A model generated the notes under the pieces. The model saw nothing but the letters and a program-made list of their open reading frames with translations. It had not been told where the DNA came from and did no database searches. Shown piece by piece: positions 9,164 to 52,500 of a stretch of DNA of 64,000 nucleotides. Both the position numbers and the translations under genes were made by a program. The number at the start of each line of letters is the position of its first letter. The first letter of the stretch is position 1. This DNA is from Chrysaora quinquecirrha (lineage: Eukaryota; Cnidaria; Scyphozoa; Semaeostomeae; Pelagiidae): NCBI GenBank assembly GCA_014526335.1, contig JACTAT010000013.1:2329987-2393986 (forward strand). The letters run 5' to 3'.

Positions 9164-23635
<14,472 letters not shown>

Positions 23636-24912: not shown

Positions 24913-26825
24913 TTAGTCTTGCTTAATAGCCAGAACATACATGAAAACACTTCCATGGTTATCTTGTTCACTCCGTTTCATACGATCTTCCTTATACCAA
25001 ATACGAAGCTCTTGACCATACGTAAGATGCAATGGATCGTTGAAGGTGACAAATGTTGATCGACTGTTTCTCCCATCATGTGTACTTCCACTGTTACCAG
25101 GCAGCAAAACTGTGTTATCAGTCTTTGTTATCAACATTTCGACCTCGTCCTCTTGATCTGTCCAGCAGCCGAAATATGTGGGGTAGTTAAAGTTAGAGAC
25201 GCATGAAATGTAGCCATACCCGTGAACCAGTTTGATTTTGTAGTTGCCGGATGGTACATCCACCTTTATTGTGGCAAATGCATTATTTTTTCCTCCGACC
25301 GCTACAAAGCCCTTCTGTAGAGGCTGGATGCTTCCTGAAATTCGAATGAAAATCAGTGTACAATTACTTGTCAAAGGTGCACTTTCTTGTAGAAAGGTTG
25401 GGGAAGTTTAGCTATACTGGGAGTTCTTTTATTTATTGGTAAGGAACTAATCTGAAGTCTCAGTAAATGATTAAGGAAACAATGGTCTATGAAATTTTCT
25501 TATTAATTAAAAAGGAAGTTTGCCATTTTTAGGGATGTTTGGCTTGGAGAGCCCCCTTTCCCCACTTAGCTTGTATCACTGCTCTCTGTGGCTACAGTAC
25601 GTTTTGTGCGACTTGGACTCGTGGAGACCCGTGCCCACGCCCGCCTACATACCTCGTACCCACAAAACCAGCGGTTACAAGTTCGAGACTTATGCTTGTC
25701 GAGTCGATCTCTAAACTATCTCCGGTCTAGCTAGCTCTAGCTAGCTCTAGCTCAATTGATGTCTGTGCTGTAAAGTTGAACGCTTGTTGCAACTTAATGA
25801 TACCGGCATTTTCCCAGAATTCACTGCGTGAAAAAGTATTCGCCATCGTTTTTACAATCGTTAAAAGATGATTTGACTTGAAAACGTTTTCTGCTTGTGG
25901 ATAAAGGTTTTACTGAATAATGTTGCACTTTTCAATTTTTCTATGAAACAGATCATAGCAGAAAATGCTATTGCCATCTAGTTGCTGAAAATATCTAGAA
26001 ATGCTAATTAGAATAAAAGTGAACAAAATAACCTTTATTGCATCTGCATTTTGAAGATGTTTCTGTGCATGGCCCGTCGTACTTGCATTCTGGCTCACAA
26101 TATGTCTTTATGTAGGACTGACCTGACTTCGGCTACGAGGGAAAATTTATTGCCTTATTATTGCACTGTAGCTTGTAATAATACACTATGGTGTGCTATC
26201 TTCAATGTTCTAATCATCATCATAATCATAATCATAATCGTCATCATCATCATCATCAGAATCATGATCGTCATCATCATCGTCATCATCATCATCATCA
26301 TTCTCATCATCATCATCATCATAATCATTATAATCATCGTCATCATCATCATCATCATAATCATTATAATCATCGTCATTTTCATCATCATCAAAATCAT
26401 CAGCATCAGCATCATCATCATCATCATCATCGTCATCATCAGTATCATCCTAATTTCACAAACAGTCACAAATTTCACAAATATCTTTTCACCTTGGGGG
26501 TGTCTAAATTCTCGTAATATGTAGAGTTGTTGTCTTCCACTAAGACAGCATTGTCTGAATTCACTGAAAGCAGTTCACACATCAGATTTCCTTCTACTTG
26601 CTTTATGTTAAACGACTTGCATCTCGAATTGGTGTTGCAATGAATTTGACATTCTAATTCATGCACGATTCGCAATGTCTCCACCGGTTTCATATTGAGA
26701 GCTCTTGACTGATATCGCTTGAATGTTGTACCACTTGACAAAAGACAGTTGTTTTGAACGTCCTTTATGGATATGAATACGAACAGGCCAAGAGTTAAAT
26801 GTCGAATAATACCATATTTTCCCAT
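24913..26825 (-). CDS. Secreted PAN-EGF protein, SOMP5-like, tandem copy A
   Basis: Three exons: 26493-26825, 26033-26105, 24913-25334; phases 0 and 1 agree and the total is 275 residues. Exon 1 starts MGKYGIIRHLTLGLFVFIS, a signal peptide, then an apple/PAN-like segment with spaced cysteines (LECQIHC, RCKSFN, MCELL). Exon 2 is a compact cysteine-rich EGF-like module (YCEPECKYDGPCTE...KCRCNKG). Exon 3 is a domain of about 140 residues with GYISCVSNFNYPTYFGCW, LRIWYKED and NHGSVFMYVLAIKQD, resembling the C-terminal module of cnidarian 'uncharacterized skeletal organic matrix protein 5'. Likely extracellular; molecular role unknown. Intron 1 carries an (ATC)n tract. The paralogue at 31171-33213 has identical exon lengths. 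Family naming is from memory of domain order, so moderately sure. Confidence 0.85.
26215..26452. repeat. (ATC)n microsatellite in intron 1 of copy A
   Basis: Imperfect ATC/ATA repeats between exons 1 and 2. The matching intron of copy B (32560-32832) carries a related tract. The frames reading I, M or H runs here are spurious. Confidence 0.95.
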
Positions 26826-27251
26826 TATGTGATCTCTTTGGCGTTCTTGGTCAATCTGCGTTGAAGCGAAATAACGGTGAGGACTTATTAACTTGACTGT
26901 AAAGGAGTTTTAAGTAAGTTTCTTTCACTTACACGATTATAGAAGCTGCAGCTGTATCTGAACCATATTTAATTTTTCATCAATCAAACCAATCAAATCA
27001 GTTTTATTTCTTGAATTCAACCTTGAACTGACCAATCAAAGTGCAACATTTTAAAACTTGTTTATTTCAAACGTCTTGGCTTGTTGTGTGAATGTGGTCA
27101 TTATAGTGTTTTGAATTACTACTGCTACTATGTGGAACAGGTTATCACATAGTGATAACACGAATGGCGTCTATGAGCATTTTGTTTTTGATTCATGTGT
27201 AAAACGGGATGTTGAATGAATGGTGGTACGTTTGATGAATATACAAATAGC

Positions 27252-28167: not shown

Positions 28168-30285
28168 CGGGCAATGTATGTGCAGTACAGTGGAGGGTGT
28201 GCGGTTCAGTGGAGGATATTCAGTACAGTAGAGGGATATCATCAGTACAGGTTTTCAGTACGGACTGTACTGTACTGATGATATCCCTCCACAGTACTGA
28301 ATATCCTTCACTGTACTGATGATATCCCTCCACTGTATTGATGATATCCCTCCGCTGTACTGATGATATCCCTCTACTGTACTGATGATATCCCTCCACT
28401 GCACTGAATATCCTCCACCGTACTATTGATATGTAATGTATCTGTGTTATTAATTATTTTCGTATTTTAGTTCATTCATTTATTTCGTTTTTACTTTCGT
28501 ATCTGTAAATTGTCGTGATGTCTAGTTGTGTGCGTGCAGTTCTCGTGTTAGTGTAAGTTACTCCCTTACCGGGAAATGTGCGTTCCTTTGTCTTTGTTGT
28601 CAACGTGTTGTGTGATGTATCGCTGTGTTGTTTAATTAGTCAGTGTTATATATTTGTGTGTAATCATATTTTAGTTTAGTCTTCGTCTTGATTGGAATAG
28701 AATCACATCTTAGAGTTATACAAAGTTTGAGTCTTTCTTAGCTTAGGCCTAGGGGCCTAAGCGTGTTCTTTCTTCCCTTCGCGCTATCCAAAGAACCAAC
28801 ACGCTACAAATTGGTGACAGGAGCGGGATAGCGTTGAAGGGAAGGGAGTCGCTTTCCTGAGAAGAATCGTATCGATCAATCATGGATTTTATGGATTTGG
28901 ATTGTTCATGGTTTGCTACGTTTCAGACGAGAGCGAATGATGTGAACCGAAAACTGAGATATAGCCGGCGTGGTGATAAATTTGTTCTTTCGTTTATTTT
29001 TTTCGTGTGCTTAAAGCTGGAGCTGGAGCTGGAGCTGACCTATTGAAGATTGAACTTTTGCTCAAAATTTAAAGTTGAACTTATTTTCTTATTCTGCCGT
29101 TCGATTCAAAGATGAAATTAGCTTATGTACACTGAACGTACATGAGACCCGATGTTGGAACCTGACACACCCACTGAAATGCCGCGAGGCCGAAGATGAT
29201 GTGATTTTTTGGATTTTGGTGAGCCGATGGATGGCCGTGAGAAGGACCAGAGAGGGTGCCTTGTATTTTGAATCAAATTTATGAACTTTAATTTCCAAAG
29301 ATGTTTTCGTGCAGAATGGAACTCCGGGTGTCGTTGAAGGCACTTCCTTCACCCGCCAATTCGGCCTTTGAGCCTTCACAAGACACTTTGGACATTTTTA
29401 TTTTTATTTTATCTTCGTTGGACTTCGCGGACAATTCAGCCCTACATTGTGTTCAATCTTGTTCTTGTAACGGAGGGGAGAGTGTAATGTATCTGTGTTA
29501 TTAATTATTTTCGTATTTTAGTTCATTCATTTATTTCGTTTTTACTTTCGTATCTGTAAATTGTCGTGATGTCTAGTTGTGTGCGTGCAGTTCTCGTGTT
29601 AGTGTAAGTTACTCCCTTACCGGGAAATGTGCGTTCCTTTGTCTTTGTTGTCAACGTGTTGTGTGATGTATCGCTGTGTTGTTTAATTAGTCAGTGTTAT
29701 ATATTTGTGTGTAATCATATTTTAGTTTAGTCTTCGTCTTGATTGGAATAGAATCACATCTTAGAGTTATACAAAGTTTGAGTCTTTCTTAGCTTAGGCC
29801 TAGGGGCCTAAGCGTGTTCTTCTTCCCTTCGCACTATCAAAGAACCCACACGTTACAGATATCCCTCCACTGTACTGATGATATCCCTCCATTGTACTGA
29901 ATATCCTCCACGGTTCGATGATATCCCTCCACTGTACTGATGATATCCCTCCGCTGTATTGAATATCCTCCACTGTACTGATGATATCCCTCCACAGTAC
30001 TGAATATCCTCCACTGTACTGATGATATCCCTCCACTGTACCGATGATATCCCTCCGCTGTATTGAATATCCTCCACTGTACCGATGATATCCCTCCACT
30101 GCACTGAATATCCTCCACCGTACTAATGACATCCCTCCACTGTACTGATGACATCCCTCCGCTGTACTGAATATCCTCCACGGTTCTGATGATATTCCTC
30201 CACCGTATTGATGATATTCCTTCACTGTAGTATATATCCTCCACTATACTGCACACCCTCTACTGTACTGCACATACATTACCCG
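28168..30285. mobile_element. Inverted-repeat element with satellite core, split by an LTR element
   Basis: The left end cgggcaatgtatgtgcagta and the right end tactgcacatacattacccg are inverted copies. Between them lie tandem units of the type gatatccctccactgtactgat, reading toward the right end, at 28250-28431 and 29858-30240. The 1.4-kb LTR element 28432-29857 interrupts the array; without it the element is about 690 bp. A smaller uninterrupted relative is at 38406-38644. Confidence 0.8.
28432..29857. mobile_element. Short non-autonomous LTR retrotransposon (TRIM-like)
   Basis: Direct repeats 28432-28808 (377 bp) and 29483-29857 (375 bp) are nearly identical, start TGTAATGTATC and end in TACA. 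Right after the left LTR comes a plausible primer-binding site (aattggtgacaggagcggga); right before the right LTR is a purine tract (ggaggggagag). The internal 674 bp begins with a short frame after 28881 that stops within about 55 codons; no protease, reverse transcriptase or integrase is present. Flanks share 'gata', consistent with a 4-5 bp target duplication inside the satellite array. Confidence 0.88.
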
Positions 30286-31170: not shown

Positions 31171-33213
31171 TTAGTCTTGCTTAATAGCCAGAACATACAT
31201 AAAAACACTTCCATGGTTATCTTGTTCATACTGTTTGAAAAGATCTTCCCTATACCAAATACGAAGCTCTTCACCATACGTAAGATGCAATGGATCGTTG
31301 AAGGTGACAAATGTTGATCGACTGTTTCTCCCATCATGTGTACTTCCTTTGCTACCAGGCAGCAAAACTGTGTTATCAGTCTTTGTTATCAACATTTCGA
31401 CCTCGTCCTTTTGATCTGTCCAGCAGCCGAAATATGTGGGATAATTAAAGTTAGGGACGCATGAAATGTAGCCATACCCGTGAACCAGTTTGATTTTGTA
31501 GTTGCCGGATGGTACATCTACTTTGATTGTGGCAAATGCATTATTTTTGGCTCCGACCGTTACAAAGCCCTTCTGTAGAGGCTGGATGCTTCCTGAAATT
31601 CGAATGAAAATCAGTGTGCAATACTTGTGAAAGATGCACTTTCTTTTAGAAAGGTTGCGGAAGTTTTAGCTATGCTGGGAGTTCTTTTATTCGTAAGGAA
31701 CTAAGCTGAAGTCTTAGTAAGTGATTAAGGAAAATATGGTCGATGAAATTTTCTTATTAACTAAACTTAGGAGATTTGTTCTTTTCAGCGATGGAAAGCT
31801 TGGAGAGGGTAGTAAAAGGTCGTCGTGAAATGCGATTGATCAGATTTTTATCGTGAAATGTGTAACGCCATATTTTTTAACGTGAAACGTGAATGGCAAA
31901 CATATTTATCCCCATGAATCTTGATCCTGACCCCCTTTACCACCCTGCTTAGAGAGCCCCTCTTCCCCGCTTAGGGAAGGCTTGTCTCCTGGCAGACCGT
32001 TTTCATGGTTTGCATGTATGACCCCTGCGGTTACGTTCGGTACGAATAAGACTCGTGGAGAGCTTTTGCCCATGTATGTACCTCAGTAGGTAGGTACATA
32101 ACCTGAGACCACTTGAGGCCACAAGTTCGAGACTTGTCCTTGTCGTAGCGGTCTCCTAAACTATTTCTGGTTGTTAATAACGTTTTGATGGCCTAGCGCT
32201 TGTGCTGTAAAGCTAAACTGATTGCAATGCATTGATACGTGGCATTTTCCTTAAATTAATTGCGTGAACAACTCAAAAACTCTCCATCCTTTTCGCAATT
32301 ACGGTGAATTCAAAGGTGTTCTCTGCTTGTGGAATAAGGTTTGATTGAAAACGGTTGCCCTATAAAAGATCGTTAACAGACGATATTGCCATCTAGTTGC
32401 TGAGAAAATCTAGAAATGCTGATTAGAATGAAAATCAATAAAATAACCTTTATCGCATTTGCACTTCGGAGTGGTTTCTGTGCATGGTCCATTGTACTTG
32501 CATTCTGGCTCACAATACGTCTTTTTGTATGACTGATGTGACGTAGGCTACGAGTAAAAATCATAATCATAACCATCATCTTCCTCATCATAATTATCAT
32601 CATAATAATCGTCATTATCATAATCATCATCATCATCTTGCTCGTCATCATCTGTCTCATCGTCATCATATTCACCATCACCATCATAATAATCATTATT
32701 TTAATCATAATAATAATAATCATTGTCATCTTCATCATCATAATCATTATCATCAACATCATCATCATCATTATCATGATCATCATCGTCATCATCATCA
32801 CCATCTCATCATCATCATCATCATCATCAGTATTATCATAATTTCACTAATAGTCACAAATTTCAAAAATATCTTTTCACCTTGGGGGTATCTATATTCT
32901 CGTAATATGTAGAGTTGTTGTTTTCCACTAAGACAGCATTGTCTGAATTCACTGAAAGCAGTTCACACATTAGATTTCCTCCTACTTTCTTTACATTACA
33001 AGTCTTGCATCTTGAGTTTGTGTTGCAATGAATTTGGCATTCTAATTCATGCACGATTTGCAATGTCTCCACCGGTTTCATATTGAGAGCTCTTGACTGA
33101 TATCGCTTAAATGTTGTACCACTTGACATAAGACAGCTGTTTTGAACATCCCTTATAGATATGAATACGCACAGGCTAAGAGTTAACTGTCGAATAATGC
33201 CATATTTCCCCAT
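31171..33213 (-). CDS. Secreted PAN-EGF protein, SOMP5-like, tandem copy B
   Basis: Exons 32881-33213, 32448-32520 and 31171-31592, the same lengths (333, 73, 422) as copy A; 275 residues, intact. The signal peptide (MGKYGIIRQLTLSLCVFIS), the PAN-like cysteines (LECQIHC, RCKTCN, MCELL), the EGF-like exon (YCEPECKYNGPCTE...KCKCDKG) and the C-terminal module (ELRIWYREDLFKQYEQ, NHGSVFMYVLAIKQD) are all kept. Substitutions cluster around EDRMKRSE versus EDLFKQYE and GNSGSTHDG versus GSKGSTHDG. The high likeness of introns and flanks shows a fairly recent duplication. Function unknown, probably extracellular matrix or mucus. Confidence 0.85.
32560..32832. repeat. (ATC)n microsatellite in intron 1 of copy B
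   Basis: Counterpart of the tract in copy A but different in length and interruptions, as expected for an orthologous microsatellite evolving after duplication. Confidence 0.93.
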
Positions 33214-34526
33214 GATGTTATCTTGAAGTAGAATAAAATTAAGGACTTAATTTAACATGGCTATAAAGGAGTTTTAAGTTTAAACTCTCCTTCACATGAC
33301 TCAGTTAATTTGCTTAATTACCCTGGGTTCCAGAGCCTCAAAGGGTCACAGGTAGTGGAAATGAGAAACGACGGAAAAAGACAGGGAAAGGTGATCAATA
33401 ACTTATTTTCTCTCTCTCTCTCTCTCTATTCCTCACGTACCCATTCCCCCCATTGTATTACTTTATTGTTGAGGTGAACTTCATCAAACCGAAATGCATT
33501 AATCAAAATGAAACTTTTTAAACTTCGTTCTTAGTTTGCTAAGAATTTCGGGGATGCGAAGTGGGTGCTACTTTCTTATTAACTGCTTTCTTCGCACACG
33601 AAAAACATGCACTTGGACCTCATTCACCCAGCATCTTTATCTTATCAGGGTTGTTACTGCAAAATTTTATCTAATTTGGCAATAATTATCCAAAAAATCT
33701 AGTTTGTTTCGTTTGCTTCTAGACTGTGAATAACCCGACATATTATTTTGCTTTTTGTCTCAGTAGCTAATCATTTAATAACAAATTACATAACCCATGA
33801 TTGAGTCAGCAAAATCAAATGTCTTATCTTTAACGTGTTATGTTAGCCAATTAAATTGTTTTTACTGAGAGATGAACGGGACAAGGCACGTAGCTTCTCG
33901 CTAGCAGAAGACACGAATGTCCCACAAGGTCCAAGACACGACGATTGCCAGAGTGCTAATGTTGACAGGTCAGTTGCGATAAATTAGTTCAAAAAAACTG
34001 CTGATTAGAAGGCGGCGGCAACTATTTCTGACCGTGCGCAATTTCGATATAAGCCTGGCTTATCAATTGCTCAACTCTCTGATGGCTGCATCAGTGACAA
34101 TTGCCATTGCCAGCCCTAGTTGTAGTCAGATTTAGGCTCTTTTGCCTGTAAATGTCAGTATAAAGAGACAAGGTTTACAAGGGTGAAAATATAATTGCTT
34201 ACAAGCTCTTCACCCAGTCTTCAAGCTGCTTCACATTTAGGTATGGCCCTATTTTCTTATTAACCGATGGTGATTTATAAAAAGTGGAATTGCTTTTCCA
34301 ATGAGACTACATGAAGCACAGAATGGGGATACGCAAAAATCATTTTTTTAAGTGTTCTTACAATAAAGCATGTATTCTAAGAAAACGCATTTCGTGTTAC
34401 CTCAAGATTTCTGTTAAGCTGAAACTCCAAAAAGTATGGCGGACCTTGTAGCGATTTTTCGAGAGCTGCTTTCCATGAGGTTCGACAAATTTGGTGAATC
34501 GTATTCTGTACAAAACTGATTGATTG

Positions 34527-36789: not shown

Positions 36790-39700
36790 TCACATTGTCA
36801 TGGGTTCTTCATTAGCTTCTTCATATTCATAGGCTGCAGTGAAATGCCTCAAACGTTTCGGTTGTCTTACAATCCGCATACGTCTTATAGTATGAGCACG
36901 AGCAACAACCTTTCTGATAACATCGACAGCATAGTCTATGTGCCCCATTGTATACATTCTTCGGGGAAGAGCAAGGCGAACCAATTCCATAGCTGCGGGC
37001 TTTTCCATACCGTTGCTGCCACTGCCGAACATTACTGAGCCAATCTCACAACCTCTGATTCCTCCTTCCAAATACAATTCGACAGATAACGCTAACCCTA
37101 GAAGACAGAAAAGACAGTATTATGGCTCTACTTTAGACTTACTGCAGTTAGTCCTACTCTTTGGGAACAATGATTTTCATTCTAAGGAACCACCAATTCG
37201 GTTGTTGTAGTTGCTGGAAGTTATTGCTGCTCAGGCTAGTGTTAAATCGTAAAACTTGGGTTGGACCCAGAACTACTCCTCGAGTCTGATCAGATTTCCT
37301 TATTCGTATTCACAGGACTGCACGGGAGAAGCATAGCGCTCTTGTTCATAATGCAATTTAAGGGTAAGTGTATAAATTGTCCCAAGTCCTAAGTCCATAA
37401 CTTTCGCTCACATTGAATTGAATTGTTGTTGTTGTTGTTCGCCCCAGCTAAGTGGTTTGAGCGTCCAGCCATTCAATTCAATAGCGATAACTACGAATCA
37501 GGTAATACGTCTAGACTGACGTTAACTAGGGCGTTTGTTTCCAACAACAAAACCACCAAGTACAGTCTAATGTGCAGCTCCTTAGTTGCACGCTTTTGCA
37601 GCTTAATCTCAAGTCTAATCAAAGCGATAGCTGTATTTCAATCAGAGTTATGTAATGGCTAGATGACGTCTAATGAACATAAAATTTACATCTAGCATAC
37701 CTGGGTAGGAGAGTTGAGGCATGTCTGGTAGAATTTGTTGAGCATCAAGGTAGATTGCATGACCTCCAACTGGTTTTATAATTGGCACATCAGCTTTGAT
37801 AAGGCATTCACCGAAGTACTGCAATTGACCAACTCTTTGCGATAAATACTCTTCGGTTACAACCTCCTTCAAACCTTGAGCAATTATTTCAAGATCCCTT
37901 CCAGTCAGCCCACCATATGTTTTGAAGCCCTCAGTTAGAATAAGATTCTCAGTGCACTTTTCAGCAAGTAGTTCGTCATTGAGTCCGATCCACCCACCTA
38001 TGTGACTTAGGCCATCTTTTTTCGCACTCATTGTCATCCCATCTGCCAGGCTGGCCATCTCTTGTACGATCTCTTTTATCGTGTTGTGTTTAGCTGCTGG
38101 ATCGCGCTGTTTTATAAACCACGCATTTTCAGCAAACCTAGTGAGAGTGGAAAAAAAATTATGTTATACATCCTTTGTTAAATGAATACAGTACCTTCAA
38201 AGAGGAAGGGTCTCAAGTAACACAGAGAAAGGGTTCTGAAGTGGACGCCTGAGAGGATTAGGTGTATGCTGTCTTATGCTGCTGTAAATGATGATGTAGA
38301 GATCGATAGCAATGACGACTGATTTGTTGAGTAGTTAATAATACCGACAACGCAGATATTCTAAGCAAGAAATGCAATTTGTGACTTCACTGAAGCAATA
38401 CCAACCGGGTAATGTATGTGCAGTACAGTAGAGTGCTGTACTAATGATGTCCCTCCACAGTACTGATTATCCTCCATAGTACTGTTGATATCCCTCCATT
38501 GTACTGATGATATCCCTCCATTGTACTGATGGCATCCCTCCACTGTACTGAACATCTTCCTTTGTACTGATGATATCCCTCCACTGTACTGAATATCCTC
38601 CACCGTACTGCACACCCTCCACTGTGCTGCACTTACATTACCCGGAGTGAATACTTGGTGTATCCTCGTATTGTAGTACAATTCTGAATGCAGTGGGACT
38701 TGTAAATAGCAGACACCTGTGTGAACATTGTCCGCTGTAGAGAGCTTTCCACTGTACCCAGGAGCTGTTTTTGCAAGAAATGACTTGGGGTGAAGCTTTT
38801 AGTTCGCTCGCTGTTCAGAGGTAGTTTATCGAGGTTTCTGTTAATAGAGGCTCCCCCGTAAGGCAGTCATGTGATTAATCATTTAATTTAGTGAATCAGG
38901 CACTCACTTAATCACACAATCAGTCAATCGATCAAAAAATCACTAAAGCATCACATTATGATATCTTCTGTGCTTTACACCTTCATGACCTTCTAGTGTA
39001 AAACCAAAGTTCATCGCGTGTTTTAGTTTTACTAATAAATGGCTTTCTTTATTCTTAGACTCTCAGCAGTGCTCCAGATAAAAATTTCAGCAACTTGCCG
39101 AAATTATAGATGAAACTGTCTCGAGCTGAAGATCCTGAGCACGAAAAACCCTACTAAGAGGTAAGATAACCTGAAACTACTTTACGGAGCAAAAGTAATT
39201 AGTCAAGCCATGATTCATATAGGGCTTGGTCTTAAGATTGCGTATTGTATACCTATCTCTTGGCACCCTGGAACTAAATTTTGCAAAAACGTTGCTTTGG
39301 TTAACTAGTAAGGCGTCTACGGAAATACTGAAAACTGGTTGACCGAAAAATACGCTCTGAGAAACCTATAGAGGAACATTTGTACTTGGGAATGAGGAGA
39401 AATACAGCTATACTGAACCTGAACCATATGGGTTCATAGTTGTGCCCAAGTCCAGAGTGGAAGGTACTGTACAGCATGTCTAATCATACGGACAGTGTGT
39501 GAGCCAAAAACATATCGATAACTCAGTCCCAGAATAACTGTTATACATTGATACTTTGTCTATGAAGAACATGGCTTTGGCTGGGCTCGATGAAGGGTTT
39601 GAACATGTGTTTTCCAAGAGAACATTACTGAACACTAATATTATTCACTCAAATCTGAAAACGTGTTCTCGGTGCAAACAGCTAATAATCGTAAGATTTC

Positions 39701-42439
39701 TAGCTCCCTTCTCAGGAAAACTCCAGTAAAGAACCCTCCACCCATTTTCGGAATTGACTGTTAAAAATCCATCCAAAAACAGTGCTAACGACCTTCTGAC
39801 CGTGAAGCTAAGCACTGCTACAGTAATGCACCCCCCATCTGACAGCAAAGCATATCCAAGAAACTTACCTGCAAGCATCGAGGTATAAAGGCTTTCCATA
39901 TTGACGGCAGATTGCACTCACGCAACGCAAGTTATCAAGGCTGACTGGTTGACCTCCTGATGCATTGTTAGTTATCGTCATCATCACAAACGGGACATCG
40001 TCAGCTGTCTCGAGAAGCAGCTTCTCCAGAGCATCAAGATCCATGTTGCCTAATGGTAGATAATGCAGAGTATAAAGGTGCTGCATCGGGTTTTATACAT
40101 ATGACCATGCCATTTAAACGAGGGGCTCTTTAAAAGGCAAACGAGATTTCCGTGAAAACTCAAGGATTTTGAAGTAATTTCCTTGAAAAAAATAGGAGTC
40201 CCAGCAAGATGTACAAGATTTCTAAGGAGTGAATCGTCCCTTGCATATAACTGCACCCTTTATGTATACCGAGATCAGAGAGCTTACTCCTTCATATAGC
40301 ATAAAATATTTGGATTTTGAAGAGATTTCTTGGGAAGAAAAAGGATTTTAAGTGAAAGTGTACTGGGTTTGTTTTGACTGTTCTGTCTTTCCTGGTGTCA
40401 AGGATTAAAACTCTTATAACAGCTAGATAATTCTTCACTTTAGAAAAAGGGGAATCGACTTCATCGACCCACAATACGGCTCTCTCTGACGCCACAAGTC
40501 CTAAAGCTTGTTCCCATCGTTGTGTGCCGTTTGGAGGGGTTTAGAGGAGTGAAGCCCAGTGAAACGCCCATTTATGCGAACCTCGTCCCTTGTCTTATGG
40601 AATGTCGGATCAATAGATTGTGAATTGATGAGAACAATGAATGATAAAAAAGTGGATGCTAAATTGCTACTTTACAGTAAATCGGTTAATCCTCAATAAA
40701 AGAACCAATTTCCAAGTGAAAAGATCGGAAATCTGCGAGAGACTGAAAAATGAATTCGAGATTGGCGCAAATTGGCGCAAATCATAATCCTTTGCGCTTG
40801 TTTGTTCAGGCACAAAATTCAATGGTATTTCGAACCCACCTGGGAATTCTGCAACAAATTTAGTTAGTTAGAATTATGCAATAGCAAAATAATCTGTAAA
40901 TCTTGCTAATCTCAAAAAGAATGCCTTCGAAACAAACAACTTGTCTGGTATGATTTGATATTCTTTGAAAACAATATTCCCTGTATCAAGCCTTATAATC
41001 TGTCTCAATTTTTATTGTTTTATCTTATCGTTGCTCTATGACTAATCCCTGTTTTGTAACGACAGTTCTCCTTTGATTTGTCTTGTCGAAGACATATTTT
41101 GTGACGTAAACACGTTGGTCACTTTGTGCCTCAATCCAATACAGTATCAGGATGTAGGGGAATGGGGGAGCACGTGTGCTCCTACTTTTCCTCAATAAAT
41201 GGCAGTTCAGAAAAAAGCTGCTTATAAATAATAGCTATTACCTAATACTGTTTGTAAGTAGCTTTTCTAGCGTAGTGTAGAAAAATTGATAATCTTAAGT
41301 TGTAAAATTGTATGGTAAAGGGCCATGAAAAGTTCCTTAGTGATTTTCCTAGTAGATAAGTTCTTTAAATAAAAAAAAAGAAAAAATCTTTTTGCTGTTT
41401 TATGTGATGGAAGTCTTTTGCCTCCTCTTATTAGAAGACGAAATGTCCCTTGTTTTTTCTCTGTTTTATTGTATTAATATACTTGCATCCTAACAATGAC
41501 CTTAACCCTAACCCATTCTCAACCAAGGGGTAACGATTCGTATTTGTATGGTATCGTAAAGCTCGTTGTAAAGGCACGGAACATCTCTTTTGCCGTGTTC
41601 TAAACCGTACAAAACGATTCTTAATAGCGATGAGGATTTCACTCTTCCAAAAGGCATATGGATTCCTGTTGAAACAAAAGGATCTCCAAGGGATTTCCTT
41701 GAAATCAATGGAATTTACGGCAAGGGTGTATACGAGATTACAAGATTGAATCACCATTCGGTTTATAGATAGAAATAAAGTGCTCTTCAAGAAGGAGTAC
41801 AAGTTTTCCTTTAAGGTGAAATGATTTAGAAAAGGGATTTCTACGTAAGTAATAAGATTTCCGACAAGAGTGTACGAGACTTCAATTGTGCGAACAACTT
41901 CGAGAAAACGTCACAGAATGTTATAGCTACCCTACTAGTAAAAGTGTCTTTAACAACTTATGCATGAACAAACCTTTGAAAAGATGCAGAAAGTTTGGGT
42001 CCTTTGCTTCTTTGATTGGAAAATCACATGCAACTGCACCACATTTTTCAATGTTCGCTCTAGTCGTATCAAAATGTGTATTATTTGGTACAACCATGCC
42101 CTTTCTGCATATAGAATTGAACAAGATTCGCTCTGCAGCTCTGCCCTGGTGAGTAGGAATGATATGTTTGAAACCAAACAGCTCATAAACTGCCTTTTCA
42201 AATCGATACCAACTTGCTGAACACGCATAGCTCTCATCACCCATGTGCATCACTGCCATTTGTTCGTTTGATAAAGCCCCGGTACCAGAGTCAGTAAGAA
42301 AATCTAACATCACATCTTCAGCTTTTATACCAAACAGATTGTAATTGCAAGATTTCAGAATTTGCTCTCTCTCTTTACGAGTTGTTGTTTTTATTCTTTC
42401 AACTACTTTGACTTTAAACGCTGGGAATATCGCTTCCAT
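36790..42439 (-). CDS. tnaA: Tryptophanase (EC 4.1.99.1), intron-bearing
   Basis: Four exons, 41974-42439, 39869-40049, 37701-38137 and 36790-37097, join in phase to 463 residues (bacterial TnaA about 470). Reaction: L-tryptophan + water to indole, pyruvate and ammonia, using pyridoxal phosphate. The N-terminal part shows [19 protein letters not shown] and [10 protein letters not shown]; exon 2 [10 protein letters not shown] and [12 protein letters not shown]; exon 3 carries the PLP lysine in MTMSAKKDG (Lys about 256), then GGLTGRDLE and [11 protein letters not shown]; exon 4 CEIGSVMFG and [10 protein letters not shown]. Within the beta-eliminating lyase family, His in RHFTA (position about 446) and Ile in CEIGS (about 380, where tyrosine phenol-lyase has Arg) mark a tryptophanase. 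No frameshift or stop. Flanking genes are animal genes and all three introns are GT-AG, so it is a resident gene, not bacterial contamination. Probably acquired by lateral transfer. Confidence 0.93.
37098..41973 (-). other. Tryptophanase introns: contents
   Basis: Intron 3 (37098-37700) holds a SINE tail fragment (37425-37525). Intron 2 (38138-39868) holds the satellite-cored element 38406-38644. Intron 1 (40050-41973) has degenerate repeated phrases of the kind 'gagatttccgtgaaa...ccttgaaa' that also occur near 13960-14300, perhaps an old repeat family. No nested gene. Confidence 0.55.
38406..38644. mobile_element. Satellite-cored inverted-repeat element, small copy
   Basis: 239 bp. The left end cgggtaatgtatgtgcagta and the right end tgctgcacttacattacccg are inverted with few mismatches over about 28 bp. 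The core is about eight units of the type gatatccctccactgtactgat. Located in tryptophanase intron 2. Confidence 0.85.
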
Positions 42440-43480: not shown

Positions 43481-43997
43481 TGCAAAATCTAAAACAAGAA
43501 AACAATGGGCCTAGAAACGAAAGCCCGTCGAAGTTGTCGTGTTTGAAGAGCCGGGAAGAAACAAACCTATGAAGAAAGATCGAAAACGAAAAAATGATAG
43601 ATCAGGAAGGTTAGATAATGAGAAAGAGGATTTTGCAGCGATTTATAGCGATGTAAAAGAATTCGGTATCACTGGGCTGAGTAAAAAGGAAAGGAAAAAA
43701 ATTGAAGACGAAAAAATGCAGTCTCTGGGTGCAAGGAAACCAAAAGGCCTGAAGACGCCATACCCCATCTTACAGAAAGCTATAAAAATTAGACGGGAGA
43801 GAGAAAAGCAAAAAGAAGAGCTTGAAAAAGAAATGGGTATTTTTACCAAAAAGAAGAAAGATGATAAAGAGAAAAAAGTTGTTGGACATGGAGGATGGTG
43901 GAAGGATGAGCCAATCAAATTAGAGAGTAGTAAAAACAATATAAAGATTAAAGCTTCTGATTTGAGGTCATTCAGCAAACGGGCAAAACTAAAGTAA
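43481..43997 (+). CDS. C1orf131: C1orf131 homologue (DUF4602), apparent 1-base frameshift near 43518
   Basis: The clear part is 43513-43997: PVEVVVFEEPGRNKP, a KKDRKRKNDRS basic stretch, the family core VKEFGITGLSKKERKK...SLGARKPKG, then ILQKAIKIRREREKQKE and a lysine-rich end. Length and order match the small basic DUF4602 proteins; the human member is a component of the small-subunit processome in the nucleolus. The frame has a stop just before 43513, while an ATG at 43481 opens a frame (MQNLKQENNGPRNE) that would run into it if the A-run near 43518 had one more base. Either that base is missing from the assembly or an upstream exon joins at the 'cctag' before 43513. Ends tail-to-tail with HEXD, 341 bp apart. 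Confidence 0.75.
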
Positions 43998-44338: not shown

Positions 44339-46048
44339 TTAGTTTTTGGCTTGTTTCAAAATTCTGTCCGTTCTTATGACCAATCCATTGATTTGATTGA
44401 CAAATGAGTTGACTTTGTCTTCCATCCATTCATTTACATCTTTCTCAAAATAAATTTTCTTCAGGACATTCTTTGCCTTGATAGAAAATCTATCAATACT
44501 TTGAGTGATTTGCTTTAGCGACTCTTTTACTGCTTCAATTTGAACAATACTAGAAATATTACTTTGATATTGCCTTTTATTCCCCCAGCTGTCCAATCTT
44601 GTCTTGATGTTGTCATACCACAAAAAGTGGTTTTCAAGTTCAAGTACCAGAGAATAAACATCAGATCCTGGGAAACTTCCTGATTCAACAACATAGCTAG
44701 TTTCAGCTGTCTTTTTGAACTGAACACCACTTTCTAGCCCAAGCTTGTCAGAAACTCTGGACATGAGATATTTATCATACTGCCTAGTGTTCAGTATTTC
44801 TAGGCATACAGCCATACTTGGAATAGACACAGGAAATAATTCACACATTGCTGCCAGATGATCAAACCTAGACCACCCAGTCATTGCTATTCCAAGGACT
44901 TCCATATTGTCGGGCAATGCAGAAATGACTTTAAGCCAAGACAAGTGGTTTTCCACATGCATTGTTAAAGGTGGGATGTTCTGATTTGGAAGAAAACCAC
45001 CTTTGAAAGAGCTTGCGATCCAAATCTTGTCAAACTTTGAGGCATATTTTTTCCACATACCATCTGGGAAGGCTCCATATTTTGTCACATCAGAAACATA
45101 TGACCAAATCATTATTTCAGTGAGTTCTGACATTTGCTTTAGTTGTTTATTATTGAACCTCCGCAGCATATCATCCCAGATTATTGGCTTTACCAGCCCA
45201 TTGCTTTTCTTGGAAACATACTCAAGAACAGGTATCATATGATGCAGGTATAGATCAAACTTTGATTTTCTACTTTGAAAACACTTGTCACATGTCTGCA
45301 AGTGGAATACTTCATCGCCTCCAACATGTAACCGATTTATTCCTGGGTGCAATTCAAGCACTTGATCAATCATAGCAAAGATCATGTCTTTAGAGCCATC
45401 CTTCAATGGGCAAAGCATGTCAAGATATTTAGGGATTTCCCTTAGATTTGCAAATTTCTTATGTTTCAAAGCAAATTCTAAATGACCAAAAGACTGTATC
45501 AGGGGTATAATATCAAGAGAAAGTTCTTTAGCTTTTTCTAACATCAGCTTTATATCTTCTTTTTCGTAGGCATGTTTTGAAGCAATTCCTTCCAAAGCTC
45601 CACTGTATGGAAACATATCTTCATACTCGATCAGCACACCTGTGGCTCCGAATTTTTTTAGTACAGGTAAAACTTTGACAATATAATCGATATTGGGTGG
45701 AGCCCCTTTAAGATCTAAGTGTACCAGCTTTTGAAACATCTTACCAGTTTTGGTTGACTTCACTTTAGGCATTGCGTGTTTGAAGACAATATTATTTGAG
45801 AGAGCAACAGCATCTTCTTTTTGAAGGAAGTTTTTCTTGCTTGAACGGCAACTATCCAAAGCCAAATTAGCCTCCGTTAGTTTGCCTGAAAGCCAGAGTA
45901 ATTTCGTGCTCATGCTTTCGATTTTAAATAAATGAAGGACGAAAAGACCAACCATAGAAGCAAGCAACAGTCTGATCAAAAATGTATTTTGTCGTTTCAT
46001 GCTTGTTGGAATAGTAGTATGATGTTTCGATTTCGTAAAGAAGGCCAT
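44339..46048 (-). CDS. HEXD: Hexosaminidase D-like GH20 enzyme, membrane-anchored, single exon
   Basis: One uninterrupted frame of 569 residues. Family role: retaining beta-N-acetyl-hexosaminidase of glycoside hydrolase family 20, where a conserved Asp-Glu pair gives substrate-assisted catalysis. The pair is present as HVGGDEVF (Asp245-Glu246). Other family-like stretches: KLVHLDLKGAPPNIDYI (108-124), TGVLIEYEDMFPYSG (136-150), IPLIQSFGHLEF (181-192) and PIIWDDML. Residues about 23-42 (FLIRLLLASMVGLFVLHLF) form one hydrophobic segment after a basic N-terminus, so a type II signal anchor with a lumenal catalytic domain is likely; mammalian HEXD itself is mostly nucleocytoplasmic. The C-terminal 150 residues look helical. 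The absence of introns beside genes with many introns may mean retroposition. Divergent from GUF1, with a shared promoter region. Confidence 0.88.
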   Translation of the reverse strand: MAFFTKSKHHTTIPTSMKRQNTFLIRLLLASMVGLFVLHLFKIESMSTKLLWLSGKLTEANLALDSCRSSKKNFLQKEDAVALSNNIVFKHAMPKVKSTKTGKMFQKLVHLDLKGAPPNIDYIVKVLPVLKKFGATGVLIEYEDMFPYSGALEGIASKHAYEKEDIKLMLEKAKELSLDIIPLIQSFGHLEFALKHKKFANLREIPKYLDMLCPLKDGSKDMIFAMIDQVLELHPGINRLHVGGDEVFHLQTCDKCFQSRKSKFDLYLHHMIPVLEYVSKKSNGLVKPIIWDDMLRRFNNKQLKQMSELTEIMIWSYVSDVTKYGAFPDGMWKKYASKFDKIWIASSFKGGFLPNQNIPPLTMHVENHLSWLKVISALPDNMEVLGIAMTGWSRFDHLAAMCELFPVSIPSMAVCLEILNTRQYDKYLMSRVSDKLGLESGVQFKKTAETSYVVESGSFPGSDVYSLVLELENHFLWYDNIKTRLDSWGNKRQYQSNISSIVQIEAVKESLKQITQSIDRFSIKAKNVLKKIYFEKDVNEWMEDKVNSFVNQINGLVIRTDRILKQAKN

Positions 46049-46579
46049 AACGGCAGAAGTGCAAATGCCAACTCATTCGATTATTGTACATGTAATCAAT
46101 AAAGCATTGAAAACCGTTAGTAACAATTGAATTTCAAAATAATGTAAAAAATGTTGGATAAAGATTTGCATGAAAATACGAATTATGCGCTCAATCGCTC
46201 AAGCACGTTGAAAAGAAATTTGGCGCACTTTTGTCTCACTTCGAAAACTGGAAACGAGACATCATCTCGTGGGCCTAAATTAAAAAAAAATAATGGCACC
46301 TTTTGGCCGCAGCTTCACAGCTCCTAACATCTTCTAAATTTAGGGTTTAAGGTTGATATTTTGGCGATCGGGGATCATGTGAGGATAATGTTTGTTTGTT
46401 TGTTAAATGAAATAGCCGATGATCATGAGAAGACCGAGTTCTAGTGCATTTTCTTTTCCTTTGTTGTTGAAGAGAAAAGTAATAAAATTGGAGTAAGTTG
46501 AGTTTATCAAACAAGTTGTACTCTACGGAAGGATTTCAAAGCTTTTACCAGCAGAAACTAATTTTCTTTATCTTTCCAG
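46049..46579. promoter_or_regulatory. Head-to-head spacer of HEXD and GUF1
   Basis: About 530 bp between HEXD's start and the first recognised GUF1 exon. It should hold both promoters and the GUF1 start codon. A candidate first exon begins with the ATG at 46415 or 46421 (MIMRRPSSSAFSF...LKRK, then gtaata), basic and Ser-rich like a mitochondrial presequence, but its phase does not fit the next exon as written. Confidence 0.45.
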
Positions 46580-49500
46580 AGCTACAACACGGCTACTAAC
46601 TTCTCGATTCTACACAGAAAATGGGAAGCAGAATGGGCCAATTTCATCAAAATTGGAAAAGGTACCATTACCTACAGTATACCATTGAAAGGTGCTGTGG
46701 CATCGTGGTGAAATCCAGCTGACTGGTGGTGTCAGAAGCTCAATGTGGTCAGGGTTTGAGCCGAGCCATGGCAGCGTCACAGCCAGGGTGGAGGTCTCAA
46801 TTAGTTAAACTACTACTGAGATCCTAGCATCTGGCACTAAAACACCATTTCACCTTCATTTGAGCCAAATTGCTGGAGATGTTCCAGCCTGCATATAGTG
46901 GCACATGCATGCAGAAGGTAATCAATAGAATAATAGAAAAGAACAATGGAAATACACTTCTGCACGCATGAGATATCTTCAAGAACTGTGATACTCTGGA
47001 AACTCAGAGATGTTCAGTGTCTAGTCTGTAGAGTATGGCAATTCTTGATGAGATCTTGTTTTGCAGGTGATTTCAATTGTTCTTTCCTATTGTTCTATTG
47101 TTTATCTACATGTGCACGTGCCACACTCTGAAGACTGATCAAGTGTTGAACACAAAACTCTGTTGGCATGGATCTTCCAGAAAACAGTATAGCCAAAACT
47201 ATTACTTTGATAATGGAACAATAGATTTATTTCTTCTGTGGTCATGAAGTCAATGATTCATCATGGGCCTTGGTGGATTTGAAGGGGTTCTAGCAGCTAT
47301 ACAGCTGATGTGGACCTGCAGCTTGTGCCCCATGATCGATATTCTAGAACAAATACCCTGGGTACTCATTTACCAACCTCAGAAGGATGGACAGCTGAGT
47401 TAACTGTTTTCTTGGGGAAAGTGGTCCCAATGAGATTCGAACTCACAATCTTTAGATCATGAACCAAATGCCTTGATATCTCAGCCATGCAACCTCAAGG
47501 CTCTCCATGCAGATCACCTATTGGTTTGAGGACAGCTCCACTTTGCACAGTTCTTGTTTAAACACAGTCCAGAGTGTTTCTGGAACCATTAAAATGTATT
47601 AAGGTTGATCTGTCAAGGATCAATCAAAGATATGCCCTGTAGATGGGGTCTATACCAACTGGAATGCTCCTTGAAACATTGAGCAGAATCTGCAAATACA
47701 TTTTTGTTCATCTTGCATACTCATACTGTTGCATTCATCTTTATTTCTGGTTAAGAACAGTTTTCTTTTTTAGAAGAAGTTTGATTTGTCAGAATATCAT
47801 CAAGATTTGATAAGAAATTTCAGTATTATCGCTCATGTTGACCATGGAAAAAGCACTTTGGCAGATCGACTTTTAGAACATACAGGTGAGCAATGACTTG
47901 GGTAAATTTTCAACATTTTGCTTAACAGCGCCTTGTCAAGTGATTAGTCAAGTGCATTTGGCAAGGGCCTTAAAACAGACTGAATTGTCAAAGTTTGAGT
48001 TTTCAGAATTTGGCTAGATGATCAATATTTCTTATTGTATGATGCGAATTGGGTACAGATAGGGTACATATGATCATCTTTCATTTCTTAAAGGCACTAT
48101 AATGCGGACTTCTGCTAATAAGCAGGTGCTGGACAAACTTCAAGTTGAAAGAGAAAGAGGCATCACTGTTAAAGCACAGGTAACTTTTGTTTGTATACTT
48201 TAGTTGAACCTTGATAGATATGTGAAACACTCAGGGGAAATGAAGATTGTTCCGTTAATGAGGTTTTGGGTATTAAGGGTTGCATTGTTATATACATAAA
48301 GCTGGCCAAAATCAAGGAGAAAAATATTCATAGCTTTCAGTAAAACAAATGTTGCAATACCAAGGTTTAACTGTAGTAATCTTTAGCTTAATAAGCTAAT
48401 ATGATTGCATCAATTTTTATAACCCACCAACTAATTTTTAGACAGCATCAATGATACATACTTACCAAAGACAAAAGTATTTGCTGAATCTAATAGACAC
48501 GCCAGTAAGTAGATTTTTGTTGATTTTTCGATATTTTCTAACGTTCTGAGATATTTCCTACATCCATTAAGTCTCAGAGTTCTCAATTATTTTTGGTAGT
48601 CAAGTTCATTTGGTATCTTCTGTGCATTATGAACGCTTCAGAACATCAGACATCAGAACAACGATTCTGATTCTGTGTTCTGTGTTGCGACTGTTAACAA
48701 CGATTTTCTTAAGACTGTAACGATAAACGATCGTAAGGATCTCATGATTATTGTATTGTCCATAGGAATCTCGATATAATGGACATCTGCAGATCAATGT
48801 TATTTTCCGTTGTAGAGAAGTGTTTGCTATATATAGGTCTGTTTCTACAAAGAAATGATCTTTGAGACGAAAAATATTTGTACGTTGTTCAGAGGTGTCT
48901 CCTGTGAAGAGTTCAGTGTCCGTTTAACAAAGTTCTAGGTTCTACTTGTTTGTTTGTTTGTTTGTTTGTTTGTTTGTTTGTTTAGGAAAATAGATATAAG
49001 CTGTATTTGCTTAGGTCTGCGTCAAACTGATACGGATAGGCTTTTCGTTTAAGAAAGCGGGACCTGGTGGATGCTGGTCAATTCAATCCCGTTTGGGTCC
49101 GATCTTCTGAAAACGGGGCCTTTGGCTCCATGATATGTTTTTTGTTGCTTCTATTGCAAAAAATCATTTGAATCGCATCGTACATCCTTCATTTGAATCA
49201 TTAATCTTTTGATAATTTGTCTTAGGGACACGTGGACTTCAGTTATGAAGTATCAAGATCTTTAGCTGCCTGCCAAGGTGTATTATTGGTTGTCGATGCT
49301 GCACAGGTAATCTTAGTTAAGTTTCCAGTCACAAATTTTCTACATAATAATGAAATGTCTCGACCGAAGATGTCCGCTTTAACTGCTTTTAACTGCAATG
49401 TATACCTGTTACCTGGTTGCCTATTCTATCTAACAACAGGGTGTCCAAGCTCAGACAGTTGCAAATTACTATCTCGCTGCAAGTGCAAATCTAGCAGTTA

Positions 49501-52500
49501 TCCCGGTTTTGAACAAGGTAAGGAAAGCCAATTTATAAAATCCGTTTTCTAATAAGCACCCCCGTCTCCAGCGAGCTCCTGTCTATTTTATAATGAGCAT
49601 CCCCTCTCAGCGATAAAAAATTAAATGAGCACCCACAACACTCAGGGGGTTAGTTAGTATGTTAAAAGATGCTATGGTTCTGCTTGAACTTGCCAGCCAC
49701 CAGCTAATAACCCTTTTCAGGAAATAGACTTGTGTGTGCTATTTAGATGGCTATTTATTATGGTTTTTTAATTTGAAAATATGATTGATTTCACTATGTA
49801 ATGCACAATCTTTTTTATGTGTAGATCGACCTTAAAACTGCTGATCCTGAAAATGTTTCCAGACAAATGGAAAACGTTTTTGGTTTTCAAAAAGATGAAA
49901 TTCTCCAGGTAAGAGAAGTTTTCCTAATTTCATAATCTGTTTCATCATTTGTGTGTCAAAATTTTCTGATAAATGCATTGAGCCTCAAGCATGACTGTGA
50001 AGTATTCACTTTTATTTGGATTTTCAGGTGTCTGCTAAAACTGGAATCGGCATTGGTGCACTGATGGAGACAATTTGCAATAAAATACCAAAGCAAGTAA
50101 CTACAATTTTGTTATCGTTGTTACAGAATATGCATAACAATAGAATAATTTCTAAGCATATTCAATAGAAAAAAGTCTTTTTTCTATTGACTATCTTCTA
50201 AGAAACTTAAAAATTTGCCTAGTTATTGAGAGTTTCTTATAATTTTCAGATTTTAGTACTTGAAGTTTCTTAAGAGTTTCTTAAATATTTGCATTGGTGA
50301 CCTATTAATTGTATCTAACTGTTGTTTTAAACCCATTTATTCGATCGTATTTGAATGCTAGTGACAGTCCAGTTTGTCGGAGTAACACAAGAATACTTTA
50401 TTCGATACAAAACGTGAGAGACAAAGATATATTTCGTTGACTGAGGTTAAAAGTTTCTTACGTTAATGTTTCCAGTACTGGAGTTTCTTAAATTCTGGGT
50501 CATTCGAGAGTCAGGGCTCTTATCAAGAGTTTCGTATAAAAATACCTGTACTGGTTCTTATAATAAGCTGTGTATAATGCATGAATTTCTTTGTTATAGT
50601 AGCCACATTTGTATTTTCATATCGTAATTGGATTTCTGAATTTGCATTTTGCAGACCCTCTGGCAGTCGAGACTCCCCTTTAAAGATATTGCTGATCGAT
50701 TCTTGGTTTGATCAGTATAAAGGAGTTGTATGTTTAGTAGCAGTCATTGATGGTTCTCTAAAGAAAGGTTTGTTTTCAGTAAATAAAAAGCATTCAGTTT
50801 GAATTTTAGATATACACTCCTGTGCAGAAAATGCTGTGGCGTCGTGGTGTAATCCAGCTGACTCCTGGTTTCAGGTGTGGTCAGGGTTCGAGCCCAGCCA
50901 CGGTAGTGTCACAACCAGGGTCGAGGTCTCGATTAGTTAACGTACTACTGAGATCCTAGCGACTGGCCCTAAAAATCAATTTCACTTTCACCTTCATCTC
51001 CTGTTCCCGTCAGTCCTACACTCCGGTCAGTATTCGTGTACTATAGCAGACTGATTACCTGAGTCCCACTCTTCGCAAACAGCAGCAACAACAACAACAA
51101 CCATATAGCTGTTTGCTCAGAGTGGAGTGGAGCGTCCAGCATAGACAGCATATAGACTCAATGGCGATAACTACGACTCTTGTAATAAATCTAGTACTAT
51201 AGGTTTAATACAGTTTTGTTTGGTACTACGTTCCGTATCCATTGAAGCATTCTTCTAACTGAGCTTTTTAATGGTTACAATTATCGATGTTTTCATAGTT
51301 AATAAAGCAATTAAATCCAATCTGCTTTTGGAAGGATCACAGAGAGGACTTCGAAGTAAAAGTTTTCGCTCCGTCTGAATTTGTCGTTATATTATGCAAT
51401 ATTTTGTTGCAGAAGAAACACTGGAAATAATATGAAGACAATCCTTTTGCTCCGTCTGAATCTGTCGTTCTATTATGCAATATTTTTTTGCAGAAGAAAC
51501 ACTTGAAATAATAGTTCTTATATCACAGACTGAAGTAAATAGTTTCTCATGTAGTCTTTTTTCAAATATGTGACCTATGAGTCTGAATTCGCATGAGCAA
51601 AAATACGCTTAGATTGGCACAACATGTGTTCTAATGACAATATGAGATAGATTTTGTGTTCAAAAAGTTTTGCTGTGTTCCAAATTTCGTGTTCAATCAA
51701 AATTTTAAATTTAAAAGACATATGTTGTAAACTTTTTGTCCAGATTAAAGGTGTTACCGTTATGATTATGGCCTTTATGATAATAGTTTTATTTTGCTTT
51801 TAGGTGACCGCGTTCAGTCCGATGCTACCAAAGAACACTATGAAATCTTGGATATTGGGGTATTAAGTCCATCAGAGCTATCCTCTAACGAGCTGTAAGT
51901 TTTATAGAAAGTTATTCAACATTATTATCCTTTTGATTTGTCGTAGTATGTCAGGGACAGACGGACGAAACTTTGAACTTACACCCTTTCTCGGGTTAGC
52001 TTGAACATTTGGCCTCATAGCACAGGCTCAGAGCCTTTCCTCTCCTCTCAAAGTAACCTGCGTTGCAGACGCTACGGAGGAGTAAAATTAAATAAAGAGT
52101 GAACCATTTTTCCTTTTTTGTTGTTTTTTCCTCCTTAGGCCTAGTTCATGCTTCGGAGTTACGCCTCAGCGAATTGAAACAGAGCTATGAAAAAATTCCA
52201 TTTTCCTATGAAAAGTGTCCATTTTCCTATGAAAAGTGTCCATTTTAGTTGGCATGAGTGTAACATAACAGCGACGTATGAAACAAATACCGAAGACAAT
52301 CCTAACCGCACTACTACTTCGGCAGCCTTGCCGCATAAAACGCCTTAACTACACCTATAACTGATTTAACCTCAACCAGTGAATCAACAGCCGCAGCTAT
52401 GGAGGAGTTAGGGCAAAGATAAAGGCTCACAACTGAATTAAATTCCCTGCGGCATAACTTCTACTCATGATGAATAGATAAGGCAAAATGGAATTCAAAT

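Follow-up and report, generated by a model that had tools for sequence, protein, structure and literature searches.

Animal Tryptophanases and the Chrysaora Gene

Tryptophanase genes (tnaA) have been listed for eight anthozoans, i.e., A. digitifera, A. millepora, S. pistillata, E. pallida, A. tenebrosa, N. vectensis, O. faveolata, and P. damicornis, and also for a hemichordate, a horseshoe crab, a springtail, a fruit fly, a priapulid, and two octopuses (Boya et al., 2021; PMC8537960). In the portion of that paper available to us, indole production is entered as "n/a" for all these animals (Table 1) and the sparse occurrence of the gene in animals is judged insufficient to reveal its origins. 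Here we describe a probable tryptophanase gene from the scyphozoan Chrysaora quinquecirrha, located on the minus strand at positions 36790-42439 of a stretch of 64,000 bases of genomic DNA (the window; bases 2,329,987-2,393,986 of contig C113 in an assembly of 328 Mb and 740 contigs). A preliminary description of this DNA had pointed out an intron-bearing tryptophanase in an animal genome; a claim of novelty is superseded by the anthozoan entries in the accessible part of PMC8537960, since the kind is already known from corals and anemones, and what is new is added evidence on the age of the gene. The shared intron positions and the single clade reported below go beyond what that part of PMC8537960 contains. 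The anthozoan genes were taken there from NCBI records and are likened to the Chrysaora gene by this listing, not by sequence.

Two further reports concern transcripts. Nematostella v1g204932, annotated as "Tryptophanase," is among the most side-specific regeneration genes, with higher expression orally and a peak log2 change of 4.08 at 24 h, according to the available text of PMC5015328; a cnidarian gene of this name is thus transcribed and regulated, its identity with the present gene being taken from the name. The transcriptome of the whelk Dicathais orbita contains a tryptophanase that has been proposed to feed the synthesis of Tyrian purple (PMC4962025, as far as accessible). In the accessible text of a KEGG-based paper on Acropora digitifera (PMC3750612), tnaA, K01667, indole, tyrosine phenol, and tryptophan metabolism were not found, though PMC8537960 lists tnaA for this coral. 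Our literature search for cnidarian tryptophanase in combination with horizontal gene transfer returned no papers, and no assay of an animal-encoded tryptophanase was found in the literature searched, most of which was covered as search listings.

Gene Structure and Family Membership

Enumeration of GT/AG joins yields a protein of 463 residues, intact to its stop codon, from four minus-strand exons with GT-AG borders, and so reproduces the exact borders and length of the TnaA-like protein that had been proposed for this locus. Eight join combinations in the same stretch give more than 430 amino acids; the 463-residue join aligns to 13 bacterial relatives with zero insertions or deletions at all three joints. 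The gene comprises the following parts.

41974-42439, minus strand: exon 1, 466 bases, codons 1-155 and the first base of codon 156, with Tyr71, Arg100, and Asp124 (join enumeration, genome search)
40050-41973, minus strand: intron 1, 1924 bases, phase 1, GT...AG, donor AAG/GTTTGT
39869-40049, minus strand: exon 2, 181 bases, with Asn184 and Asp213 (join enumeration, genome search)
38138-39868, minus strand: intron 2, 1731 bases, phase 2, GT...AG, donor CAG/GTAAGT
37701-38137, minus strand: exon 3, 437 bases, with the last base of the Arg216 codon, the lysine that binds pyridoxal 5'-phosphate (PLP), Phe287, and Tyr290
38017-38019, minus strand: codon of the PLP Schiff-base lysine, Lys256, in the motif SAKKD, aligned to E. 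coli TnaA Lys270
37098-37700, minus strand: intron 3, 603 bases, phase 1, GT...AG, donor CAG/GTATGC
36790-37097, minus strand: exon 4 with the stop codon, 308 bases, with Cys378, Ile380, Arg402, and His446

Pyrimidine tracts are clear at acceptors 2 and 3, and donor 1 and acceptor 1 are weaker. Intron 2 holds a tandem repeat array (38437-38632), and a second array of the same repeat family (GATATCCCTCCACTGTACTGA-like, with units of ca. 22 and ca. 41 bases) lies outside the gene at 29858-30270.

The tryptophanase match of the spliced protein is far beyond chance, with 231.6 bits to the beta-eliminating lyase family PF01212 (gathering cut-off 27; 1.5e-68) and 626 bits to the NCBIfam tryptophanase subfamily NF009709 (PRK13238; curated cut-off 285; 3.4e-188). 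Among solved structures the top-scoring are tryptophanases (PDB 8sbg, 434 bits, 8.6e-129; PDB 8sij, 429 bits), followed by tyrosine phenol-lyases at about 400 bits. In the alignment with the 13 bacterial relatives the N-terminus of the protein coincides with the start of the bacterial enzyme and an added targeting sequence is not seen; because such an extension is absent, the enzyme is probably cytosolic.

Shared Intron Positions

In a full-length search, in which 8000 candidates were scored, the best 120 were 59-62% identical to the protein, and those with a named organism were bacterial. A search with exon 1 alone placed 14 rows (P0121-P0134; 66-97% identity) above the remainder of its best 120; half of them (7/14) lie on contigs between 0.2 and 2.5 Mb long, and P0123 stems from a eukaryote set and carries "Tryptophanase" as its depositor's name. 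These rows, and the exon-3 rows described below, are labelled "animal-type"; we infer an animal source for their contigs, and the intron breaks in these relatives were deduced from predicted proteins, not from contig DNA. On viral contigs there was one pattern match and zero relatives.

Thirteen of the exon-1 rows (P0121-P0133; 67-97% identity) reach the joint at intron 1 (..FKG), and 11 of these turn unlike coding sequence beyond it, as for read-in of an intron. Weaker cases among the 11 are P0122 (three residues) and P0125 (two of eight residues alike), and in the other two, P0123 and P0129, the residues past the joint are too few to judge. The next residue is compatible with a GTR donor in 11/13 rows (not in P0121 and P0122), which is a lenient test; the donor in the window is GTT. 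The remaining row, P0134, runs in frame across this joint, i.e., intron 1 is absent, and stops at DACR/Y, matching intron 2 of the Chrysaora gene in position and phase. At the acceptor of intron 2, all four exon-3 rows that extend 5' have Arg ahead of the exon, with a preceding residue that is compatible with a YAG acceptor in phase 2. An exon-3 search gave 16 rows with at least 70% identity among its best 120, all of which break at ..PG, the joint at intron 3, with a next residue compatible with a GTR donor (16/16); near-duplicates (P0317/P0318, P0278/P0282) are included, so that the rows represent fewer than 16 independent lineages. Bacterial rows continue through the joints, with FKGN in 70/78 and [YF]P[GA]Q in 55/78. 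The fragments P0134 and P0305, both listed with a contig of 1,503,115 bases and treated as one relative, fit introns 2 and 3 without intron 1, which makes this relative useful for dating intron 1.

Phylogeny

Trees were built from 80 bacterial loci, of which two (L008 and L020) were dropped as having no open frame by our filter. The first tree (47 rows) contains 31 bacterial rows, left after thinning of the 78 at 76% identity, and the window protein with 11 animal-type rows; the second (58 rows) contains 52 rows, left after thinning of 198 (the 78 loci and 120 listed proteins) at 80%, and the window protein with five animal-type rows. Several exon-1 rows (P0123, P0126, P0128, P0129, P0130, P0132) and exon-3 rows (P0244, P0245, P0278, P0281, P0308, P0317, P0318, P0334) were excluded so as to keep down the number of partial rows; P0229 (69% identity over 84% of exon 1) was also left out. 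Neither tree includes protist or fungal rows. The four characterized rows (E. coli, 8sbg, 8sij, 9j3u) form long branches; one of the joins between them carries a warning that it may be false, and in the tree concerned the bootstrap was unsettled.

In the first tree the 12 animal-type rows, including the window gene, are monophyletic (100/100), the row P0134/P0305, which lacks intron 1, is sister to the other 11 (99/95), and the clade joins rows of Actinomycetota, Chloroflexota, and Myxococcota (95/94). With closer bacteria, in the second tree, the animal-type clade of six rows is again supported (100/100) and falls in a group of 26 rows with Actinomycetota, Chloroflexota, and Myxococcota (100/99). 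By these trees, there is a strong case that the animal-type rows descend from one ancestor. Because the relatives break at the same intron places and form one clade (100/100), the gene and at least its introns 2 and 3 look old and shared.

Active Site and Predicted Reaction

The aligned catalytic residues Lys256, Tyr71, Arg100, Asp213, Arg216, Tyr290, and Arg402 equal E. coli TnaA Lys270, Tyr74, Arg103, Asp227, Arg230, Tyr307, and Arg419 (references in the residue alignment: E. coli TnaA, PDB 8sbg, 8sij, and 9j3u; Phe287 was placed from the structure-match alignment). From the literature on TnaA and tyrosine phenol-lyase (TPL), we take Lys256 to hold PLP, Arg402 to bind the substrate carboxylate, and Tyr71 to act as acid/base, and Asp124, Phe287, Ile380, and His446 presumably line the pocket where the indole is bound. 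The residue alignment confirms the SAKKD lysine, Ile380, and His446, on which the preliminary description had based its assignment. Among the animal-type rows (n = 11), Tyr71, Arg100, and Asp124 are kept in all eight rows that cover them, as are Lys256 and Tyr290 in the eight covering those positions; nearby, Gly67 is replaced by Ala in one row and Asp257 by Gly in one row. Asp213 is covered by two animal-type rows, one of which has Phe, probably by intron read-through.

PLP on Lys256 would bind L-tryptophan and its alpha proton would be taken off, Asp124 and His446 would help to protonate the indole ring so that indole is released, and the leftover aminoacrylate would give pyruvate and ammonia, steps known from work on TnaA. 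The predicted reaction is most likely L-tryptophan + H2O -> indole + pyruvate + ammonia.

Five pocket positions distinguish the E. coli indole-lyase from phenol-lyases, i.e., Asp137/Thr124, Phe304/Met288, Val394/Met379, Ile396/Arg381, and His463/Phe448 (PMC5805759, in the text accessible to us). The Chrysaora protein has Asp124, Phe287, Cys378, Ile380, and His446, so that four of the five are in the indole-lyase state and the fifth, Cys378, is of neither type; Cys at this position is also present in 8sbg, 8sij, and 22/31 bacterial rows. With E. coli TnaA and PDB 8sbg (EC 4.1.99.1) the protein has in common the PF01212 domain, the PLP lysine, the aligned catalytic residues, and the Asp/Phe/Ile/His pocket. 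Unlike the E. coli gene, the Chrysaora gene is eukaryotic and has three introns, its protein has Cys378 for Val394, and it scores below the cut-offs of the TnaA equivalog models. An identity as TPL was rejected: PDB 9j3u (EC 4.1.99.2; 401 bits) belongs to the same family and has the same catalytic frame, but its Thr124, Met288, Arg381, and Phe448 are Asp, Phe, Ile, and His here, and the protein is also below the cut-off of the TPL model TIGR02618 (474 of 720.7 bits).

Substrate and Origin of the Gene

The gene is a single-copy, intact, nuclear one, and we consider it likely that it encodes a cytosolic PLP-dependent tryptophanase of bacterial origin and that it has been inherited with introns since before the split of the sampled eukaryotic lineages. 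The tryptophanase would have been acquired from bacteria before that split, probably from a donor of the Actinomycetota/Chloroflexota/Myxococcota type, and the gene would since have been passed on together with its introns. Several observations weigh against this reading. The splice structure of the Chrysaora gene was read from genomic DNA, and the best 120 of the 8000 scored proteins include no animal-type relative that is both spliced and full length. The reports on O. bimaculoides conflict, since its tnaA is listed in PMC8537960 and its KEGG pathway gave no match to tryptophanase in PMC4962025, in the accessible parts of both. Furthermore, the protein stays below the cut-offs of the TnaA equivalog TIGR02617 (440 of 825.8 bits) and of TnaA NF053783 (519 of 750 bits), and Cys378 is unlike both the Val of E. 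coli and the Met of TPL. Finally, approximately unbiased (AU) tests keep trees in which the animal rows stand outside an intact bacterial in-group (p 0.284 in the first tree, 0.18 with more rows) or group with the deepest bacterial rows (p 0.116 and 0.16).

The first of the questions raised by these points is that of the substrate. The protein is assigned, by its model scores, to the wider tryptophanase subfamily and not to the TIGR02617 or NF053783 equivalogs; no narrow curated model is reached and, therefore, the family alone leaves the substrate unfixed. Together with the deviating Cys378 and the existence of a related domain with another function (PDB 9cen, labelled as a polyketide synthase protein; 2.1e-29), this leaves some room for a working beta-eliminating lyase that acts mainly on an amino acid other than tryptophan, e.g., tyrosine or an S-substituted cysteine. 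We regard this as unlikely in view of the indole-lyase state of Asp124, Phe287, Ile380, and His446 and of the fact that the two best-matching solved structures are named tryptophanases.

The AU tests bear on a second alternative, i.e., that the gene goes back to an early eukaryote, was passed down vertically, and disappeared from most lineages, without any transfer into animals. It would agree with the deeper branching allowed by these tests and with the tnaA genes reported for protists and fungi (PMC8537960, available text). According to the same text, however, protists and fungi acquired the gene on several separate occasions, and in our best trees the animal rows are nested among those of Actinomycetota, Chloroflexota, and Myxococcota (100/99); we give this alternative a rather small probability. 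Since the AU tests spare the deeper branching, neither the nesting nor the identity of the donor is firm; the best tree points to a bacterial source but does not prove it.

The preliminary description had envisaged lateral acquisition followed by intron gain. Its first element agrees with the bacterial full-length relatives, but the notion of a recent, lineage-specific transfer, after which this animal would have gained three introns, has become very improbable. In its favor are the best 120 full-length relatives, with their 59-62% identity and bacterial names where named. The old, shared introns are evidence against it: the exon-1 break is common to 11/13 rows (the other two being too short), the exon-3 break to 16/16, and the phase-2 acceptor of intron 2 to 4/4. 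The phylogeny with bacterial and animal-type rows, which had been proposed as a check, speaks against it as well, with the animal-type rows in one clade (100/100). We rejected this scenario on the shared intron positions; to rescue it, introns would have to have arisen independently at the same sites and in the same phases.

Genomic Setting

The gene lies at ca. 2.37 Mb of a multi-megabase contig and is single copy, as both family searches of the whole genome (328 Mb, 740 contigs) matched this locus only. Ten neighboring frames of the window were searched against Pfam; five gave no match, including the frame at 1068-1508, and the other five matched as follows.

9164-9562: villin headpiece
26475-26909: PAN_1
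43515-43997: FSAF1
44339-46072: GH20 domain
49226-49552: EF-Tu GTP-binding piece, barely above the cut-off

The coding GC content of the tryptophanase gene is 42.9%, with 37.5% at third codon positions compared to 36.0% in the adjacent GH20 frame, and its codon fractions correlate with those of that frame at 0.891. Its correlation with the 78 bacterial relatives has a median of -0.024 (range -0.162 to 0.77), and the median coding GC of these relatives is 65.8% (40.8 to 73.2). The gene is a resident of a eukaryotic genome, as the preliminary description had held, in view of its introns, its host-like codon use, and the eukaryotic domains of its neighbors. Bacterial contamination or an assembly chimera, for which we see a negligible chance, was rejected because of the three spliceosomal introns, the single locus ca. 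2.37 Mb into its contig, neighbors with FSAF1, GH20, PAN, and villin-headpiece domains, and the host-like composition.

The window also contains a tandem duplicate (24913-26909 and 31171-33246), with 164-residue frames that are 92% identical over 149 residues, exons (26475-26909, with the PAN domain, and 32863-33246) that are 86% identical over 120, and, in each copy, a trinucleotide run between frame and exon (one at 32560-32829). The frame at 1068-1508 resembles the end of a reading frame of a reverse transcriptase of the long interspersed nuclear element type.

Host Tryptophan Metabolism and the Meaning of Indole

The Chrysaora genome also has exons of the enzymes that open the kynurenine route, with IDO-family exons at two loci (C257:5816725-5818275 and C268:1188445-1192660) and TDO exons on one contig. 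The two IDO loci, being on different contigs, represent paralogues or haplotypes. For TrpB, one weak stretch was found in the genome (30.6 bits, positions 49-155 of 385), whereby the whole-protein cut-off of 392 is unreachable for single exons and absence is unproven. A host loop from indole back to tryptophan via TrpB was rejected, as the exon-by-exon search gave no convincing TrpB; indole would therefore exit the cell or be modified. Its likeliest use would be as a signal or deterrent, or the reaction may just break down tryptophan in parallel with the kynurenine route. Production of indole by the host itself is a testable prediction, and one open to direct study in Nematostella, a laboratory anemone with a gene of the same name.

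A more specific scenario, which we put forward tentatively and hold to be possible rather than probable, is that a tryptophanase of the Actinomycetota/Chloroflexota type was captured a single time by an early animal. Introns 2 and 3 would have been in place when the sampled lineages diverged, intron 1 would have undergone one gain or one loss, and many marine invertebrates would have kept the gene as a body-axis-regulated host source of indole, used in signalling to microbes and predators or in deterring them. The shared introns also bear on the origin of animal tnaA, a question left open in the available text of PMC8537960. Indole in corals and anemones is normally credited to bacteria; if it is made by the host, measurements on holobionts, antibiotic controls, and ideas on the direction of signalling would need revision.

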